Shown: positions 28,796 to 38,284 of the stretch, piece by piece | How the letters are laid out: each line of letters opens with the position of its first letter | Numbering within the stretch: position 1 is the stretch's first letter | Source: Geobacteraceae bacterium | GTDB lineage: Bacteria; Desulfobacterota; Desulfuromonadia; Geobacterales; Geobacteraceae | Direction: 5' to 3' | DNA length: 38,529 nt | Assembly (NCBI GenBank): GCA_024281055.1 | Contig: JAMXLF010000044.1 | Location: 1-38,529, forward strand | Made by a program: the position numbers and the translations under genes | The notes under the pieces: model-generated | Seen by the model: the letters and a program-made list of their open reading frames with translations, nothing else | The model's database searches: none | What the model was told of the DNA's origin: nothing

Positions 28796-29623
28796 CTAGG
28801 GGTGGCTCTGGGGGGAGTTGGCGGGTTTTGTGTCCGGCATCGTCTTGGGGCAGCTGCAATCGCCAGGGACGGAGGCTGAGACTGCCGCCAGAAGCACCTG
28901 GGCAGCACCTGGATAATGCATGACTTCGCGGAGGATCTGGTCGACAGGTTTCCGACTCGCGGGGTAAATTACGACGGGGTAGACAAAGCCATCTTTGCGA
29001 GTAATCTCGACGACCCCGATCCCAAACAGGTCGGACAATCGCCCGAGCTCGCCACAAAAGGCGTCCTTGCTGATGCGTCCGACGATTAAGTACCGTTCGT
29101 GCGCGCAGTTGGTCCGGCACCAGGCGTCGCGAAACGTCTCATGGAGATTTTCGACGGTGATTTCTGTCGCAACAACGCCGGCGACAACTGAGTGAGGTGG
29201 AACTTCGACTCCTTGCGCTGAACGGAATAGGTCCGGCGGCCGGATGCCCATAATGTCGGGCAAGCACTTGTCGCTGTCCTCAATTATGCCGTGGGGCAGA
29301 TACGTGCGGACCTGATAGCGGTTGAGGAAGAGCACGCCTTGCGACGTGAGAGAAGCAAAGGAGAGGTCGCCAGTCGGCGCCCCGGAGGGCAGATTCGCCC
29401 AGGTGTAGCGCAGAGAACTGCTCGAAGCCTTCCGGCACCAGCCCTGCTCATTCCGCGCGACGTCGGCAGCGGAGAGGATAGCACGGATGGCATTCAGGGT
29501 ATCTATCTCCGCCTTCAAGAATTTTCCCCCTCCTGGGAACAATATGATGCGCTGAAGGAGTTCCTCGGGAGTTGCGCTGCCTGCTGCCTGCAGATGGTCC
29601 TGGATAATGACTGCGAGTGTCAT
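28796..29623 (-). CDS. Island protein of unknown function, intact member of a paralogous pair
   Basis: A 275-residue soluble protein with a good Shine-Dalgarno (GGGAGG) before ATG 29623. The N-terminus (MTLAVIIQDHLQAAGSATPEELLQRI) is helical. The centre has alpha/beta character, with GVLFLNRYQVRTYLPHG, then EITVENLHETFRDAWCRTNCAHERYLIVGRISKD and a LFGIGVVEI strand. The NCAHERYLIVG segment looks like the core of a sensor or nuclease-like fold, but I cannot name a family. A degraded paralogue lies at 30447-31283, sharing the LPHxxVAxVVxxE, CAHERYxxV and GIGV motifs. The duplicated pair brackets a 67-aa gene. Confidence 0.7.
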   Translation of the reverse strand: MTLAVIIQDHLQAAGSATPEELLQRIILFPGGGKFLKAEIDTLNAIRAILSAADVARNEQGWCRKASSSSLRYTWANLPSGAPTGDLSFASLTSQGVLFLNRYQVRTYLPHGIIEDSDKCLPDIMGIRPPDLFRSAQGVEVPPHSVVAGVVATEITVENLHETFRDAWCRTNCAHERYLIVGRISKDAFCGELGRLSDLFGIGVVEITRKDGFVYPVVIYPASRKPVDQILREVMHYPGAAQVLLAAVSASVPGDCSCPKTMPDTKPANSPQSHP

Positions 29624-30446: not shown

Positions 30447-31283
30447 TTAGTGGGCTTTAGGGGGACTTTGGTGAATGAACCTGGAGAAGAACTCGCCGTA
30501 AATCGAGGCGTAGCTGGTGGTCAGAAACTCGTGCAGAGCGGGGTTGAGCCGTGTGAGGACGCTGAGGGCCTGCAGATCGGGGTTCGGCTCTGGCCTCATG
30601 TCCGGATAAGCTCTGGGGAAATCTACGATTCACTCCCTGCAGATATGGATTACCCCGATCCCTAACGTCTGGGACATGGAAATGATCTTGCTCATCTCGT
30701 TGATGTCGCTGCTGACGCGCCAGACAGCTACGTATCTCTCGTGAGCGCACCGGGTCCGCGTGGCGGCATCCATCATCACCGTATGGAGGTTTGCGGCGTT
30801 CAGTTCTTCTGTCACCACGCAGGCAACGAACCGATGCGGCAAAACGCCAAGCGTGCATGCCAGATGGAAATCGTCATTTACCAGGCGCGGCATCCTGATG
30901 CCGAAAAATCCGGCAAGTATCTGTCGATGCCGTTATCCCTCGTCGTGCCGAGGAACACGTGCTTCCGGGTCCCATAGTGGTTGAAAAAGGTTACGAGGAG
31001 CGGCGTAACAGCCGCTAGAGAGAAGTCGGATGTTACTGTCCTTGACGTGCGTTCCGCCAAGGCGTAGCGGTAAGGGGGGCCCGAAACCCGCACGCACCAG
31101 CCCCGCCCGTCATTCAGCTCAATATCGTTTGCCGAAAAGAATTGAGCTGATGGCCTTCAGGGGATCTTGCTCCGCTCTCAAGATTTTTGCCCCCTCCGGC
31201 TCCCATTCGATACTCTCCAGGACTTCCTGAGGTGTTCTGCCTTCCCATCCCAACATCCACTGCACAAAGCTCGTGAGTGCCAT
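30447..31283 (-). pseudogene. Degraded paralogue of the 275-aa gene
   Basis: Starting at an ATG (31281-31283) with AAGGAGG upstream, the frame gives MALTSFVQWMLGWEGRTPQE and runs to a TGA after FGKRY. Homology resumes in another frame (GRGWCVRVSGPPYRYAL to DRYLPDFSASG, about 30878-31100). It shifts again to LPHRFVACVVTEE, RCAHERYVAVW and GIGVIHICRE, hits a TGA at 30630-30632, and stays open beyond it to TAA at 30447. Two frameshifts and one stop against the intact copy at 28796-29623 show decay. The IS5-family element is inserted 33 bp upstream of its start codon, which probably removed its promoter. Confidence 0.78.
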
Positions 31284-31316: not shown

Positions 31317-32658
31317 CAGGTCTTTGAAAAACTCTTACTATTTACAGCCACTTTGACACAGTTTTGTGTTATTATGCCGCTCATAACTATTTGATATTTT
31401 TGGAGAATGAGTATGCGCGGTTTTGAGCAACCATCAGATTCCTTGTTCGTTTATCTATCGCCGGAGTCTTTCGTGCCCAAGGATCATCCGCTTCGGCCTA
31501 TCCGGCAGATGGTTGATGCGGCATTGGAGAACCTTTCGCCGGTATTCAGCCAGATGTACTCCCACACCGGCCGGCCTTCGATCCCACCGGAGAGGCTGCT
31601 CAAAGCCATGCTGCTTCAGGTGTTATACTCGATCCCCAGCAACGTCAAGTTGGTGGAGCAGATTCACTTCAGCATCCTGTTTCGCTGGTTCCTCGGGCTG
31701 GGGCTCGACGAGCCGGTTTGGGACAATTCCAGCTTTACCACGAATCAGGAGCGCCTTATCGAAACCGACGTTGCTGCCCGGTTCCTCGCGGAAGTGCTTG
31801 AGCAGGCCAAGCGAAACAAGCTGCTCTCGAAGGATCACTTCAGCGTTGACGGCACGTTAATCCAGGCTTGGGCCTCTCTCAAGAGCTTCAAACCCAGAGA
31901 CGACGATCAAGAGCCACCTTCCGGCAAAAATCCGGGCCGTGATTTCAAGGGAGAGAAACTCTCCAACGAAACTCACTCATCAACCACCGATCCTGAGGCC
32001 ATGCTTTACCGTAAGAGCCTCAACCAGGAACCGCGACTGTCCTTTGCCGCGCATCTGCTAACCGAGAATCTCCATGGGCTGGTCGTGATGAGCAGTGTCA
32101 CACAAGCCGATGGCTTTGCCGAGCGCGAAACCGCCAAGGCAATGATCGGGAAGATCGCTCCCCGCAAGCGTCGGATCACAGTCGCGGCTGACAAGAACTA
32201 CGACACGTTTGGATTCGCCAAAGCCATGCGTGAGTTGAACGTAACGCCTCATGTCACGCAGAACACCACCAAGAAAGGCCGACGTTCATCTATCGATGGC
32301 CGCACCACTCGGCACAGCAGCTACGCAGCAAGTCAGAAATTCCGCAAGCGCATCGAAGAGGTCTTCGGTTGGCTCAAGACTGTTGGTCTGTTCCGCAAGA
32401 CTCGTTACCGAGGAGTCAAAAAGATCGACTGGCACTTCACCTTGGCAGTAACAGCCTACAACCTGGTCCGAATGCGAAACTTAGGGATTTGTGCCACATG
32501 AAGCATGGAAATGCGTTCAAGAGGCAACGACAAAGCCAATTAACCGGCAAAAACGAGTTTCAAAGAGCATAAAATTAGCTAATTAAACAAATGACTTGCC
32601 CGATTTTGCCCTAACGAGGGGACTTAGCTGCTTAATCGGAGAGTTTTTCAAGACCCTG
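31317..32658 (+). mobile_element. Complete IS5-family insertion sequence
   Basis: A 1342-bp element bounded by imperfect terminal inverted repeats: 31317-31337 and 32638-32658 match at 16 of the first 19 positions (CAGGTCTTTGAAAAACTCT against CAGGGTCTTGAAAAACTCT). A 4-bp direct repeat ATAT flanks it (31313-31316 and 32659-32662), as expected for target duplication by this group. It carries one intact transposase gene, so it may still be active. Confidence 0.88.
31413..32501 (+). CDS. IS5-family DDE transposase
   Basis: A 362-residue DDE transposase. It has the N-terminal family domain (FEQPSDSLFVYLSPESFVP, PERLLKAMLLQVLY), D146 in SVDGTLI, a second aspartate at 260 in AADKNYD, and E315 in the R-x3-E-x6-K signature (RKRIEEVFGWLK). 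The ATG at 31413 is preferred over the one at 31407 because the GGAG at 31402-31405 is properly spaced only to the former. There is no frameshift, so this is a single-frame transposase. Confidence 0.92.
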   Translation: MRGFEQPSDSLFVYLSPESFVPKDHPLRPIRQMVDAALENLSPVFSQMYSHTGRPSIPPERLLKAMLLQVLYSIPSNVKLVEQIHFSILFRWFLGLGLDEPVWDNSSFTTNQERLIETDVAARFLAEVLEQAKRNKLLSKDHFSVDGTLIQAWASLKSFKPRDDDQEPPSGKNPGRDFKGEKLSNETHSSTTDPEAMLYRKSLNQEPRLSFAAHLLTENLHGLVVMSSVTQADGFAERETAKAMIGKIAPRKRRITVAADKNYDTFGFAKAMRELNVTPHVTQNTTKKGRRSSIDGRTTRHSSYAASQKFRKRIEEVFGWLKTVGLFRKTRYRGVKKIDWHFTLAVTAYNLVRMRNLGICAT

Positions 32659-33459: not shown

Positions 33460-33508
33460 CATCGGCGTCCAGTTGCGCACTTATTTCTTCAAGGGAGGGA
33501 AACACCAC

Positions 33509-34948
33509 ATGGTCCGCCAAATCGAGGCATTCATCAGGAACTTTTCCAAGGAGGTAAAGGAAAACAATGCGGCAATATTTGCCGGCGCGGGGCTTTCAGT
33601 TGGGGCAGGATTCGTTGACTGGAAAAGCCTTCTGAGACCCATCACCGAAGAGCTGGGCCTGGACGTCGATAAGGAGGATAACCTTGTGTCGATTGCCCAG
33701 TACCACTGCAACGAAAAGCTCCAGAATCGGAACCGGCTGAACCAACTGCTGATTAACGAATTCAGCCGGGATGCTGAGTTAACGGAAAACCACAAGATAC
33801 TGGCGCGGCTGCCCATCACTACCTACTGGACCACCAATTACGACAAGCTCATCGAGAAAGCCCTCGAGATGGCGCATAAGGTGCCAGATGTAAAGTACAC
33901 CATTAACCAGCTTGCGACCACCAAACCGAAACGCGACGTCATCGTCTACAAAATGCACGGTGATGTTGACCATCCTGACCAGGCAGTTCTCACCAAGGAC
34001 GACTACGAGTCATATCACATAAAGTTTGCCCCGTTCATTACCGCACTGAGTGGCGACCTCGTATCAAAAACGTTCCTCTTCCTCGGGTTCAGTTTCACGG
34101 ACCCGAACATCGATTACATCCTGAGTCGCATTAGGGCTACCTATACCAACCACCAGAGAGAGCACTACTGTATTATGAAAGCAATCTCCAAGCTGGACAA
34201 GGAGAGCGATGCGCAATTTGAATACAGGCGGCGGAAACAATCGCTCTTCATCGGCGATTTGAAGAGGTTCAACATTACCACGCTGCTGGTTGACGGATAC
34301 GAGCAGATTACCGAGATTTTGACGCGGATAGAGCATATCTACAAATTGAAAACCGTCTTCATATCCGGCAGCGCCCATGAGTACGGCGTCATGGGTAAGG
34401 ACAAGGCGGAACAGTTCATCCACGAACTGAGCAAGAAGTTAATCAGCAGGGAATATAAAATCGTATCCGGTTTTGGCCTCGGGGTCGGTGGCGCCGTAAT
34501 TAACGGGGCTTTGGAGGAAATTTATACCCGCGGTAAGAAGTCTACTGATGAGCAGTTGATACTTCGACCATTTCCACAAAACCAGACCGGAGCAATTCCG
34601 CAGAAGGTCCTATGGGATGATTACCGCAAAGACATGATTCCACTGGCCGGCATTGCCATTTTCCTCTTCGGCAATAAAATGCAGGATGGTGCGGTGGTTC
34701 CGGCCAACGGTGCAGAGAGGGAGTTCGAGATTGCCGTTGAAAACGGTTTGAGGGTTGTCCCCGTCGGGGCGACGGGGTACATAGCGGAAAAGCTCTGGAA
34801 GGAGGTTTACGATAATCTGGACAAGTATTATCCCGGCTATTCGTCGGAGTTCGAGGAGAATTTCAAGGAAATAGGGGACTCATCGTTGGAACCGGACGCC
34901 CTGTTGGAGTCGATAGTTAAATTGCTCGACAAAATTATCAGGAGGTAG
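33509..34948 (+). CDS. thsA: ThsA: SIR2-SLOG NADase effector of a Thoeris system
   Basis: The 479-residue protein has an N-terminal SIR2-like domain (about 1-275) with FAGAGLSVGAG, N110 in TTNYDKL and H150 in KMHGD. These correspond closely to the N112 and H152 that are essential for NAD+ cleavage in Bacillus cereus ThsA. The C-terminal SLOG domain (about 283-445) has VFISGSAHEYG, the GFGLGVGGA glycine loop, LRPFP and AEREFEIAVENG, and in Thoeris it binds the cyclic ADP-ribose isomer made by ThsB. The length (476 in B. cereus) agrees. ATG 33509 is chosen because GGGAGGGA lies 8 bases upstream; a TTG at 33473 is rejected. Its stop overlaps the ribosome-binding site of thsB1. There are no membrane segments, so it is probably cytoplasmic. 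Confidence 0.93.
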   Translation: MVRQIEAFIRNFSKEVKENNAAIFAGAGLSVGAGFVDWKSLLRPITEELGLDVDKEDNLVSIAQYHCNEKLQNRNRLNQLLINEFSRDAELTENHKILARLPITTYWTTNYDKLIEKALEMAHKVPDVKYTINQLATTKPKRDVIVYKMHGDVDHPDQAVLTKDDYESYHIKFAPFITALSGDLVSKTFLFLGFSFTDPNIDYILSRIRATYTNHQREHYCIMKAISKLDKESDAQFEYRRRKQSLFIGDLKRFNITTLLVDGYEQITEILTRIEHIYKLKTVFISGSAHEYGVMGKDKAEQFIHELSKKLISREYKIVSGFGLGVGGAVINGALEEIYTRGKKSTDEQLILRPFPQNQTGAIPQKVLWDDYRKDMIPLAGIAIFLFGNKMQDGAVVPANGAEREFEIAVENGLRVVPVGATGYIAEKLWKEVYDNLDKYYPGYSSEFEENFKEIGDSSLEPDALLESIVKLLDKIIRR

Positions 34949-34950
34949 TC

Positions 34951-35397
34951 ATGGCACGGAGAGTATTCTTCAGTTTTCATTACCAGCGCGACATTTGGAG
35001 AGTTAACCAGATTCGGAACATTCCGGAAATCACGGGATGTGCGGCAGCCGGCTTTCAGGACGCATCCTTGTGGGAAGAGGCGAAGAAGAAAGGCGACGCC
35101 GAAATCAAGAAGATGATTGACAAAGCCCTCGAAAACACGTCTGTCACCGTCGTTTTCATCGGTAATAAAACCGCGGGCAGAAAATATATCAATTACGAAA
35201 TCGAGCAATCAATCGCCCGGGGCAATGGTATCGTCGGCATCCAGATACACCATCTGAAGAACAAGGATAGCGAAACCGATGATGCTGGCGCAACGCCGGC
35301 AAAACTGTCAAATGGCGGCTACAAGGTCTACAAGTACGTGGATTCTGAAAAACTGGCTGCAAGGATAGAGGAAGCCGCCAAAGCAGCGGGGAAATAG
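34951..35397 (+). CDS. thsB1: ThsB1: TIR-like (DUF1863) Thoeris sensor/signal synthase
   Basis: The 148-residue TIR-like domain begins ARRVFFSFHYQRDIWR, the DUF1863 opening with a flavodoxin-like first strand. Next come VFIGNKTAGRKYINYEI, where E83 is the probable catalytic glutamate, and GIVGIQIHHLKN. In Thoeris, ThsB recognises infection and makes an ADP-ribose-derived cyclic signal from NAD+ that activates ThsA. ATG 34951 has AGGAGG upstream and starts 2 bp after thsA. It is short compared with the usual 180-200 residues and ends soon after the last helix (EEAAKAAGK), with no tail. Confidence 0.9.
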   Translation: MARRVFFSFHYQRDIWRVNQIRNIPEITGCAAAGFQDASLWEEAKKKGDAEIKKMIDKALENTSVTVVFIGNKTAGRKYINYEIEQSIARGNGIVGIQIHHLKNKDSETDDAGATPAKLSNGGYKVYKYVDSEKLAARIEEAAKAAGK

Positions 35398-35437
35398 ATG
35401 CGCAGTCTGGTTCTTTCCAACAAAAGGAGATTTTGAG

Positions 35438-36028
35438 ATGCCAAAGAGACAAGTGTTCTACAGCTTCCATTTCGACAACGATGTGATGCGGGTGCAGCAG
35501 GTCAGAAACATGGGTGCGTTGGAAGGAAACGAGCCTGTTTCGGCCAACGACTGGGAAGAGGTCAAGAAAAAAGGGGACGCATCAATTAAGAAATGGATTG
35601 AGGACAACATGTCCTATCGGTCCTGCGTTGTTGTCCTTGTCGGGGAAGAAACGGCAAACCGGAAATGGTGCAAATACGAGATTGAAAAGGCCTGGAAAGA
35701 CGGCAAGGGGCTCGTTGGTATATACATCCACAACCTGAACTGCCCGAACAATGGTAAATCCAAGAAAGGCCAGAACCCCTTCGAGCAATTCGAAATCGAA
35801 GATGGCTCCAAAATGTCGACCGTTGTTAAGTGTCACAACCCGGACAGTTCTGACGCGTATAACGACATCAAGGAAAACATCGAAACCTGGATAGAAGATG
35901 CCATTACGGCAAGAAAGAGTGGAGGGGGAGAAAACGCTGCCTGCCTCGTCAATCTGATTTCCGAGAAGAGCGATCCTGGCGCTGTCGAAAAGCGCGGCGG
36001 AGGTCGCTACGGCCAGCGCTTTGCTTGA
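35438..36028 (+). CDS. thsB2: ThsB2: second TIR-like Thoeris protein with a Gly-rich C-terminal tail
   Basis: A 196-residue paralogue of ThsB1: PKRQVFYSFHFDNDVMR, VVVLVGEETANRKWCKYEI (probable catalytic E81), GLVGIYIHNLN. An AAAGGAG precedes ATG 35438, 40 bp after thsB1. Multiple ThsB copies with one ThsA are known and may sense different phages. The folded domain should end near WIEDAITARK (residue 160). A flexible tail follows, with SGGGEN, EKRGGGRYGQ and a final Phe-Ala. Such a tail, absent from ThsB1, recalls the C-termini of type II CBASS nucleotidyltransferases that are activated by Cap2. The last 8 bases overlap the next gene. Confidence 0.9.
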   Translation: MPKRQVFYSFHFDNDVMRVQQVRNMGALEGNEPVSANDWEEVKKKGDASIKKWIEDNMSYRSCVVVLVGEETANRKWCKYEIEKAWKDGKGLVGIYIHNLNCPNNGKSKKGQNPFEQFEIEDGSKMSTVVKCHNPDSSDAYNDIKENIETWIEDAITARKSGGGENAACLVNLISEKSDPGAVEKRGGGRYGQRFA

Positions 36029-37814
36029 AGCTCACCACATACGAGGGATTGAGAGACTGGCGGCGCTCGTCTCTCAATTCCCTCGCTGGCGGTGCCTGAC
36101 AGAAAAGGAGCTGAAAGCATATCCGTTAAGTTTCGTCAGGGGCTGGGAATTACCAGGCCTTTGTCATGACCCGGCGCGGCATCTGCGCCTGATGGTTGAT
36201 GCGGACTTCCCTTTCTCGCCGCCGCGGGTCGCGATCTTTCCTTCTCCGCCTGTGCTCACCTGGCCAAATCTCGAAGAAGCTGGCATCCTGTGTGTATTCC
36301 AGGAGAGCGCCGCCACATCGACGGAAAAGGTAGATTCTGTTGCGCTGGAACTGCTCAAAGATGCTCAGTTCCTCATCAATGAATGTACTGCCGGTAACGG
36401 GCGTGAGCGCTTCGAGGATGAGTTCGTCAGCTACTGGGACCGATGGCCTCGCAAAACCAAGCGCTTTATTTCTCTTTGTGACGCAGCTGGGCCGACGCGC
36501 TGGGTGTATGCCTGCAGCCAGAATGCGTTCACCATTGTTGCCGAAACCGAAGAGGCTATTAAGTCCTGGTTATCGAACTGTTACGGCAAGAAGTTAAGTC
36601 CTACAGCCGAAAAGATTCCTTTTATACTTCTGGACAGGCCGCTGCATCCTGAAGAGTACCCGAAATTCGTCGCCAACCTTTTCTGTGTAATCCACGAGAA
36701 CGCAGATGCGAACAGAATCGTCCAGGAATACCTCTTTTCCGGCGCTTCCAGTCGAATGAAAGTTATGTTGGGTTTCCCTGGCCGTAACGGTTTTGCTTTT
36801 GCCGGGCTGGTGCTTCCGCCACATGATAGTTCCGCTATCCATAAGCGTCCTCCGCGGACGCCGATGGAAAAGCTGGGAGTCGGGTTCCGCAATGGCAAGA
36901 TGCGGCCGGACATACTCTTGCAGCGATATTGTCTCGTTCCCTTGAAGGGAGCCATGGTTCAACGTTGTGACCCATTGTGGGTCCATGGTCGTGGCCATAA
37001 CCCGGACACAGGTACCCTTATGCAAAAGACGGTTGTCATGATAGGCACAGGTTCTCTCGGGAGCGGTGTTGTCGAGCTTCTGGCGAAGATGGGGACCGGA
37101 AAGGTTATCCTCGTCGACCCCGAGAATCTACAGCCTGAAAACGCCAGTCGCCATTCTCTGGGCGTCAGCCCCGTACCCGTGGCGAAAGTCATTGAAATGG
37201 CAAAGAGTCTCCGGCAAAGGTTTCCGCATCTGGAATTCGTTCCTCATGTGATGGGCTGGAATCGCCTTTACAACAGGACACCGCAGGTCCTTACGGCCGC
37301 CGATTTAATCATCTCCACGGTCGGTAGTTGGACTGCGGAAGGCCCGCTCAACGTCATTGCAAAGGGGGCGCCCGGCTTTCCACCAGTTCTGTTCGGTTGG
37401 CTTGAGGAACATGCATCGGCCGGCCATGCCATCGCCATCTTCGGAGGCCGCGGGTGTCTGCATTGCATGATAAACCATCGCGGTCAGGTCAAAAGCCCGG
37501 TAACGAAATGGCCTGAAGAAGGGACATTACTGCAAATTCCGATGTGCGGTGGGCTGTTTCAGCCTTATGGCGCCATTGAGCTTTCCCATGTTCAGGCGCT
37601 TGTGGCGGACCTTGCTGCCGATATCCTTCTGGATCGGATAGCAAGGACAGCGCATCGCGTCTGGATTGGCCAGCATAAGCTTCTTGCCCCCGGCGGGGGG
37701 CAGTGGAACCGGGACTGGACCGACTTGCACGGGGACCCCGGCGATGGCGGGAGAATGATGGAAGTGCCGTTTCGTCATGACCCGGCATGCCCTGTTTGCA
37801 AGGAGCTCAAGTGA
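36021..37814 (+). CDS. E2-E1 fusion protein, Cap2-like ubiquitin-type conjugation enzyme
   Basis: The 597-residue protein joins two eukaryote-like activities. Residues 1-135 are an E2/UBC domain with FPFSPPRVAIFP, WPNLEEAGILC and the active cysteine C91. Residues 335-560 are an adenylating E1/ThiF domain with GTGSLGS (342-348), VILVDPENL and a probable catalytic C509 in MCGG. CxxC pairs at 479/482 and 590/593 look like the structural zinc site. In type II CBASS, Cap2 of this layout joins the C-terminus of the signal synthase to other molecules. Here the neighbours are ThsA/ThsB, with no CD-NTase. The start is unusual: TTG at 36021, 8 bases inside thsB2, with GGAGG at 35999-36003; a CTG at 35976 is an alternative. 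It is coupled to the next gene by a GTGA overlap. Confidence 0.9.
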   Translation: MLEAHHIRGIERLAALVSQFPRWRCLTEKELKAYPLSFVRGWELPGLCHDPARHLRLMVDADFPFSPPRVAIFPSPPVLTWPNLEEAGILCVFQESAATSTEKVDSVALELLKDAQFLINECTAGNGRERFEDEFVSYWDRWPRKTKRFISLCDAAGPTRWVYACSQNAFTIVAETEEAIKSWLSNCYGKKLSPTAEKIPFILLDRPLHPEEYPKFVANLFCVIHENADANRIVQEYLFSGASSRMKVMLGFPGRNGFAFAGLVLPPHDSSAIHKRPPRTPMEKLGVGFRNGKMRPDILLQRYCLVPLKGAMVQRCDPLWVHGRGHNPDTGTLMQKTVVMIGTGSLGSGVVELLAKMGTGKVILVDPENLQPENASRHSLGVSPVPVAKVIEMAKSLRQRFPHLEFVPHVMGWNRLYNRTPQVLTAADLIISTVGSWTAEGPLNVIAKGAPGFPPVLFGWLEEHASAGHAIAIFGGRGCLHCMINHRGQVKSPVTKWPEEGTLLQIPMCGGLFQPYGAIELSHVQALVADLAADILLDRIARTAHRVWIGQHKLLAPGGGQWNRDWTDLHGDPGDGGRMMEVPFRHDPACPVCKELK

Positions 37815-38284
37815 CGCTTACCTATCGAATGGAACCAGGGGGGCCGGCGATTGTTCTGACAGAAGCGGTCGTCGAAACGATGCTGAGGCACCGCCAAGTT
37901 GGGCCAAAAGACAAGGAGGCAGGCGGGCAACTCTTCGCTCGCTTTGAAGGCAAAGATACTATTATTGTCGAAGCAACTGAGCCGAAGATCTCTGACAATA
38001 GGAAGAGATATTGGTTCGAGCCGAACAAGTGGTTGCAGAGACAAGAAATCAAGGCCAAGCACAAGTGCGGTGAGCATTTTGTTGGAGACTGGCATACCCA
38101 TCCACAGCCCATTCCATCACCATCTTCGGATGACCTTCACAGCATCGCAGAATGTTACCGTGAATCACGACATGAACTCAAAGCATTTCTGATGGTAATA
38201 GTCGGGACGACAGAACCGCCAGAAGGTATCCTTGTTTGCATGGTGGATAAGCAAGGGGTGAAACCTCTGATATATTATCCATGA
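37811..38284 (+). CDS. JAB/JAMM metallopeptidase, Cap3-like deconjugase
   Basis: The 157-residue protein has the complete JAMM zinc motif: E36 in KEAGGQLF, H95-x-H97 in DWHTHP, then S105 and D108 in SPSSDD. Enzymes of this type cut isopeptide or peptide bonds after ubiquitin-like C-termini; Cap3 reverses Cap2 conjugation in type II CBASS. I chose GTG 37811 over ATG 37787. It overlaps the stop of the E2-E1 gene as GTGA and has AAGGAG at 37800-37805, while the ATG would lie inside the upstream gene without a site. It is the last gene of the operon, with a terminator about 90 bp later. There are no transmembrane segments. Confidence 0.9.
   Translation: MTLTYRMEPGGPAIVLTEAVVETMLRHRQVGPKDKEAGGQLFARFEGKDTIIVEATEPKISDNRKRYWFEPNKWLQRQEIKAKHKCGEHFVGDWHTHPQPIPSPSSDDLHSIAECYRESRHELKAFLMVIVGTTEPPEGILVCMVDKQGVKPLIYYP

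Follow-up and report, generated by a model that had tools for sequence, protein, structure and literature searches.

A ThsB protein bearing the C-terminal tail of a CBASS CD-NTase in a Thoeris operon with Cap2-like and Cap3-like genes

Why does one of the two ThsB proteins of a Thoeris operon end in a Gly-rich tail, directly before genes for an E2-E1 fusion and a JAB peptidase? The question is raised by a locus of a Geobacteraceae bacterium (assembly GCA_024281055.1, contig JAMXLF010000044.1), of which we analyzed positions 1 to 38,529, the whole 38,529-nucleotide stretch being called the window below. Five genes on the plus strand at 33473-38284 stand in the order ThsA, ThsB1, ThsB2, E2-E1 fusion (Cap2-like), and JAB peptidase (Cap3-like). 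The tail of ThsB2 is almost certainly homologous to that of the CD-NTase (cGAS/DncV-like nucleotidyltransferase) which, in the type II cyclic oligonucleotide-based antiphage signaling system (CBASS), normally lies directly upstream of this Cap2 family. Judged by its sequence, a Thoeris module here occupies the place of a type II CBASS effector and CD-NTase, with the CD-NTase tail in frame on ThsB2.

A preliminary description of this locus had placed a low-complexity tail past the TIR-like fold of ThsB2, at residues 161-196, and had seen none on ThsB1. Both points hold. The ThsB2 open reading frame (35438-36028) encodes 196 amino acids, residue 161 begins at 35918 and the stop codon ends at 36028, and the tail contains SGGG (161-164), RGGGR, and a terminal RFA, so that the C-terminal residue is A196. 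The match to the PADLOC ThsB model PDLC00433 (164 positions) ends at ThsB2 residue 160, which is model position 162, and leaves 36 residues beyond it, whereas in ThsB1 (148 amino acids) the ThsB model alignment reaches the final residue. An AlphaFold model of ThsB2, itself weak (mean pLDDT 48.3, four sequences), puts the last helix at 140-160 and gives a pLDDT below 50 for 164-196. The term low-complexity suits only the SGGG and GGGR parts, and the tail is homologous to a CBASS CD-NTase tail rather than merely alike in style.

That homology rests first on L004, a locus in a Deltaproteobacteria metagenome-assembled genome and the one relative obtained when GTDB genome contigs were scanned with the E2-E1 protein. 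Upstream of its Cap2 lies a gene for a DncV-like CD-NTase (PF21654, 77 bits; PADLOC cyclase model PDLC00783, 454 bits), the C-terminal end of which is 79% identical to ThsB2 residues 166-193 (NAACLANLVSSKSDPGAVDKKGGGRWGQGSA in the CD-NTase versus NAACLVNLISEKSDPGAVEKRGGGRYGQRFA in ThsB2). L004 is an ordinary-looking type II CBASS locus of CD-NTase, Cap2, and Cap3, with a patatin gene (PF01734) just upstream on the opposite strand; a second relative, L070, from the window's own class (Cap2 53% identical), comprises patatin, CD-NTase, Cap2, and Cap3, and its CD-NTase ends in ENSAFLSSLIATKSEPVAVQKNGGGRFA. The ThsB2 tail was scored against the tails of 10 of 15 upstream proteins, with 2,000 shuffles each. 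The L004 tail scored 125 (shuffles had a mean of 21.5 and a standard deviation of 4.0, 0/2,000 being as high), and no shuffle equaled the scores of L070 (81), L049 (60), L037 (56), L048 (50), L038 (45), or L047 (43); weaker scores came from L035 (32; 69/2,000 shuffles), L041 (32; 3/2,000), and the MBL-like protein of L042 (29; 6/2,000). Scores are thus high for the nearest CD-NTases and low for the most distant, and the link is accordingly strong to the former and weak or absent to the latter. Over 28 tail residues, the window shares 21 with L004 and 16 with L070, and L004 and L070 share 14 with each other. Used as a query against the whole genome of the window, the L004 CD-NTase has the ThsB2 tail as its sole match (E = 1.2e-8, 71% over 31 residues), and ThsB2 searched against the L004 genome has as its sole match the CD-NTase tail (ThsB2 residues 164-194, E = 5.2e-9). 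A type II CBASS CD-NTase catalytic domain was not found in the host genome, where the L004 query reaches the ThsB2 tail only and the CD-NTase models PF21654 and PDLC00783 have no match; neither model matched in the control genomes either.

The joint between the two parts can be placed closely. The nearest ThsB found, that of L061 (genome G164; 78% identical to ThsB2), has its stop immediately after the residue matching K160. DNA identity between the window and L004, counted in blocks of 15, is 3, 2, 1, and 4 before the E165 codon and 11, 10, 13, 12, 9, and 10 after it; the figures for L070 are 6, 5, 4, and 3 before and 11, 8, 8, 9, 9, and 5 after. The K160-E165 interval consists of twelve bases encoding SGGG. 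The end of L061 at K160 and the jump in DNA identity at E165 together indicate a complete ThsB that has lost its stop and continues in frame into a CD-NTase tail. The junction region is present once in the assembly. The features of the operon are as follows.

33473-34948, plus strand: ThsA, a SIR2 plus STALD/SLOG effector (STALD PF18185, 272 bits; SIR2 PF13289, 110 bits; PADLOC ThsA model PDLC00407, 702 bits)
34951-35397, plus strand: ThsB1, TIR-like and tailless (PF08937, 90 bits; PDLC00431 over residues 1-148; PADLOC ThsB, 190 bits)
35438-35917, plus strand: TIR-like domain of ThsB2, residues 1-160, a complete ThsB (PF08937, 95 bits; PDLC00433, 261 bits, residues 3-160)
35918-35929, plus strand: junction linker SGGG, residues 161-164, the DNA identity to L004 jumping at the E165 codon
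35930-36028, plus strand: CD-NTase C-terminal tail on ThsB2, residues 165-196 and stop, with internal GGGRYG and terminal QRFA
36021-37814, plus strand: Cap2-like E2-E1 protein (PADLOC E1-E2 model PDLC00836, 572 bits; PF14461, Prok-E2_B; PF00899, ThiF), 61% identical to the L004 Cap2
37787-38284, plus strand: Cap3-like JAB peptidase (PF14464, Prok-JAB; PADLOC JAB model PDLC00891, 184 bits)

With the open reading frames as listed, ThsA and ThsB1 are separated by 2 bases and ThsB1 and ThsB2 by 40, ThsB2 and Cap2 overlap by 8 bases, and Cap2 and JAB overlap by 28, or by 4 if the JAB gene starts at GTG 37811. The JAB protein aligns with its L004 counterpart from residue 11, and this GTG, two residues ahead of the match to the L004 Met1, is its likely start. 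The Cap2 frame is open from 35958 but contains no ATG or GTG before TTG 36021, a codon overlapping the stop of ThsB2; starting there, Cap2 would share only 8 bases with ThsB2, and the arrangement suggests that translation of Cap2 begins at this TTG and is coupled to that of ThsB2. In ThsA, an in-frame ATG in the 33509-33511 region (MVRQIEAF) is a possible true start.

What usually stands before a Cap2 of this family was surveyed in 16 loci: the window, L004, L070, L047-L049 from the phylum search, L097 and L098 from viral contigs, and eight plasmid loci drawn from 40 listed of the 219 plasmid records that match Cap2. The upstream gene encodes a CD-NTase in 14 loci (identified by plasmid annotation in seven and by PADLOC in L004, L070, L047, L048, L049, L097, and L098), an MBL-like protein in L042, and ThsB2 in the window. 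The last residue of the CD-NTase is Gly or Ala in 13/14, among which L035, L036, L039, and L040, all from plasmids of Rhizobiaceae, are nearly identical and do not count as independent cases. The exception, L038 (2946-5812), ends in RYAGSALP and has no JAB gene annotated beside its Cap2 relative; it may be a variant or degenerate system. The common CD-NTase end is GG(G/S)R followed by an aromatic residue or His and then Gly or Ala, with departures in L041 (DGDERYA) and L098 (SSSSSA). The C-terminal Ala of ThsB2 obeys the Gly/Ala rule of type II CBASS substrates, and its untrimmed RFA end also fits a rule of Arg, aromatic, and small residue. A four-residue extension past the GGGR-aromatic-Gly motif is common to L004 (QGSA, L004:5994-6005) and ThsB2 (QRFA, 36014-36025) and looks precursor-like, as if it needed trimming. 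In L042 (2758-6164, on an Aeromonas salmonicida plasmid), the MBL-like protein, annotated as CobQ and MBL-like by PADLOC only with no Pfam match, overlaps the Cap2 relative, a JAB gene follows, and the C terminus of the protein, AYA, resembles that of a Cap2 substrate. Within the window's own class, Cap2 was found in 3/277 genomes (its own and those of L004 and L070), and in the classes of genomes G253 and G304 it was found in 1/148 and 1/85, both already-known loci. Viral contigs gave 0 matches with the protein query and 2 with an alignment query, both behind CD-NTases.

A second ThsB with such a tail was sought widely. Among 27 ThsB-like open reading frames in 23 chosen loci (L043 and L044 share the same Thoeris genes; L046, part of L057-L060, L089-L094, and L096 were left out), the tail motif occurs in the window ThsB2 only, and the window is the only one of the 23 loci with an E2-E1 gene within the stretch compared. 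With ThsB2 as the query, 10 of 395 phylum genomes match, the other 9 ending at or before ThsB2 residue 162; 8 of 277 class genomes match, of which, besides the window's own, 6 have the TIR part only and one (G622, the L004 genome) the tail only. None of the best 40 of 76 matching plasmid records extends beyond residue 164, phages gave no match, and viral contigs gave 4 loci, three with tailless ThsBs and a fourth (L046) cut by the contig end. The tail alone gave one chance-level match in plasmids, where a 40-residue query is too weak, and a ThsA query of 11 genomes found no match, which carries little information. The preliminary description had proposed asking whether the tail and its terminal residue go with the E2-E1 gene. 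They do, in that Cap2-adjacent CD-NTases end in Gly or Ala in 13 of 14 cases and the 26 other ThsB-like reading frames are tailless; this comparison was run on CD-NTases, the window holding the only Cap2-adjacent ThsB found, so the tie between tail and Cap2 is an association without replication.

The ThsB relatives include two further arrangements. In L061:667-1601 and L062:5256-6213, a ThsB (78% and 64% identical to ThsB2, respectively) is directly followed by a protein of about 150 amino acids with hydrophobic stretches; the two proteins are alike by eye and have no Pfam match above cutoff, there is no ThsA in the stretch compared, and they are candidates for a TIR plus membrane-effector pair. 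In L077:3462-8468, on an Enterobacter hormaechei plasmid, a ThsB lies near an annotated CBASS cGAMP-activated phospholipase and several annotated TIR proteins.

If the tail is that of a Cap2 substrate, is the machinery to act on it intact? Excerpts of the work of Jenson et al. (2023; PMC10097602) report that Cap2 captures the CD-NTase as a thioester through its C-terminal Gly and conjugates it to lysines, that this conjugation raises cGAMP (cyclic GMP-AMP), and that Ala at the C terminus lowers conjugation without abolishing it and increases the thioester. According to the same excerpts, 1,583 CD-NTases encoded together with Cap2 and Cap3 show strong conservation of Gly or Ala as the last residue, a conservation confined to such operons, and Cap3 cleaves after the CD-NTase C terminus in a tandem fusion (PMC10097602). 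In E. coli, Cap2 C91 is the E2 site and Cap3 E38 is named, as given in part of a commentary (PMC10449767). The window encodes two type II CBASS components, the Cap2 E2-E1 protein with both cysteines and the Cap3 JAB protein. C91 and C509, which the preliminary description had picked out as the E2-E1 cysteines, prove invariant in 10 aligned homologs; the predicted Cap2 structure was unusable (two sequences, mean pLDDT 31.2). The JAB protein contains E44 and HTHPQPIPSPSSDD, and it scores 67 bits with the NCBIfam CBASS Cap3 model, below the cutoff of 200.

In Thoeris, a cyclic ADP-ribose signal made by the TIR protein activates ThsA. We consider it probable that the window holds a hybrid immune operon in which Thoeris replaces the CBASS effector and CD-NTase, the tail is kept on ThsB2, and Cap2 conjugates ThsB2, priming TIR signaling. 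The operon would have arisen by replacement of the CBASS effector and the CD-NTase body. That ThsB2 is a candidate conjugation substrate had been proposed earlier by analogy with type II CBASS, and the proposal is supported by the actual homology of its tail to the tail of the CD-NTase that goes with this Cap2 family. The Cap2 E1 domain would adenylate the last small residue of ThsB2, either A196 or, once Cap3 has removed QRFA, G192; because most relatives end in GG(G/S)R, an aromatic residue or His, and Gly or Ala, G192 would be the natural trimmed end. ThsB2 would then pass through C509 and C91 of Cap2 onto lysines of other proteins, from which Cap3 would remove it. Conjugation would prime the TIR domain for producing the ADP-ribose signal by which the ThsA NADase is opened, and tailless ThsB1 would stay outside conjugation control. 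In supposing that conjugation activates the TIR domain we draw on CBASS, where conjugation of the CD-NTase raises cGAMP, and on Thoeris biology, in which the TIR signal opens ThsA.

Several points weigh against this hybrid, conjugation-primed operon. With a single instance, selection acting on the tail since the fusion is inseparable from any that preceded it. Cap2 may also depend on contacts with the body of the CD-NTase. G192 and A196 are both candidates for the reacting end, and the four-residue extension appears also in L004. Changing Gly to Ala reduced conjugation in E. coli CBASS (excerpts of PMC10097602), and the case for conjugation of ThsB2 comes from sequence.

Could the tail instead be a passive scar, left when Thoeris recombined into the 3' end of a CD-NTase gene, held in place by translational coupling to Cap2, and too young to have decayed? 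The ThsB2 stop does overlap the Cap2 TTG start by 8 bases, Cap2 and Cap3 are both retained beside the fusion, and only one fusion was found. Coupling alone, however, needs neither a ThsB without its usual stop nor an in-frame joint that respects both domain boundaries, and the pattern of changes points the other way. Over 32 tail codons, counting the stop, the window departs from L004 at 4, 5, and 15 sites at positions 1, 2, and 3, and the Cap2 body has change rates of 0.287, 0.193, and 0.650 at the same positions. Across 35958-36028, a stretch in which Cap2 has an open frame too, the changes by tail codon position number 3, 4, and 10. Since tail position 3 is Cap2 position 2, they crowd on Cap2 position 2, so that the shared DNA seems to be constrained as tail protein and not kept for the Cap2 N terminus. 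GGGR is unchanged as protein despite a DNA difference (GGAGGT in the window, GGCGGT in L004). In the residue identities given above, with L070 as the outgroup (16/28 for the window, 14/28 for L004), the ThsB2 tail gives no sign of faster drift than a tail that has stayed on its CD-NTase. These counts are small and lump together changes from both sides of the fusion event, so they cannot date it; nor does the slightly different GC content of the modules. On balance, we judge the scar unlikely.

That reads from a Thoeris locus and a CBASS locus were joined in assembly or binning is far less likely still. The assembly has 103 contigs and a contamination estimate of 3.42, and the contig (C44) stops 245 bases past the JAB stop. 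Yet the joint keeps the frame and falls where both domains end, the operon spacing is tight throughout, the junction region is single in the assembly, and no orphan CD-NTase body was found there with the L004 CD-NTase or with the two models that had no match in the control genomes. We likewise give very little credence to the view that Cap2 does recognize the tail but only as a docking site, with Cap2 or Cap3 regulating ThsB2 noncovalently or another protein being conjugated: the four residues after GGGRYG do shift the end away from the common site, but Cap2 retains its two cysteines, the JAB protein has its motif, and the terminal residue of ThsB2 still fits the Gly/Ala rule. Frameshift read-through of ThsB2 into the Cap2 N terminus was rejected as the origin of the tail, as the tail frame is the one homologous to CD-NTase tails and the one that the changes relative to L004 fit.

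By its gene content, the window operon is a hybrid, Thoeris by its effector and TIR proteins and type II CBASS by Cap2, Cap3, and the substrate tail. It resembles type II CBASS in having Cap2 and Cap3 of the same family, a substrate gene directly upstream of and overlapping Cap2, a homologous tail, and a terminal Gly or Ala. It differs in that no CD-NTase catalytic body and no CapV were found, the tail is on a ThsB TIR protein, and the effector is ThsA; because no CD-NTase body was found, we do not class it as a CBASS member. Like type I Thoeris systems (ThsA SIR2-SLOG with one or more ThsBs), it has ThsA (SIR2 plus STALD/SLOG) and two ThsBs in one operon that match PADLOC models, but ThsB2 has a 36-residue C-terminal addition, seen in 0/26 other ThsB-like reading frames, and is followed by Cap2 and Cap3. 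The L042 operon similarly has a non-CD-NTase protein with a small C-terminal residue (AYA) at the substrate place, although that protein is MBL-like and its tail is not clearly homologous to that of ThsB2. Bil and Bub, which use separate ubiquitin-like proteins, are alike in having E1, E2, and JAB enzymes in defense operons. They are bacterial ubiquitin-like pathways (PMC13373217, in part). A Pfam scan named no beta-grasp or ubiquitin-like modifier among the five operon genes, though no search aimed at one was made, and CBASS CD-NTases, too, come without a beta-grasp modifier (excerpts of PMC10097602). At the level of titles and abstracts, with most subscription papers and bioRxiv preprints not covered, no Thoeris-Cap2 operon or ThsB with a CD-NTase tail was found described.

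The region before the operon looks mobile. Two minus-strand proteins of the window (28796-29623 and 30630-30893) share a stretch around CAHERY, have no Pfam matches, and seem to be related remnants; a DUF772/DDE transposase gene (31407-32501) lies close by.

One immune system appears here to have borrowed the tag-and-attach mechanism of another. We lean, with somewhat less assurance than for the operon itself, toward a broader reading in which the tail of Cap2 substrates acts as a portable tag, the TIR protein ThsB2 serves as a ubiquitin-like modifier of phage or host proteins that Cap3 can remove, and the locus represents a Thoeris-CBASS hybrid class with conjugation-primed TIR signaling. The locus in effect offers a natural experiment for CBASS, where it is an open question whether the tail alone directs Cap2 to its substrate and whether any enzyme so attached is activated by conjugation. 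If the tailed TIR protein is indeed conjugated, the tail would be portable and conjugation a general priming device for signaling enzymes, a Thoeris system would be under ubiquitin-like control, and immune operons would exchange parts with the cuts falling between domains.
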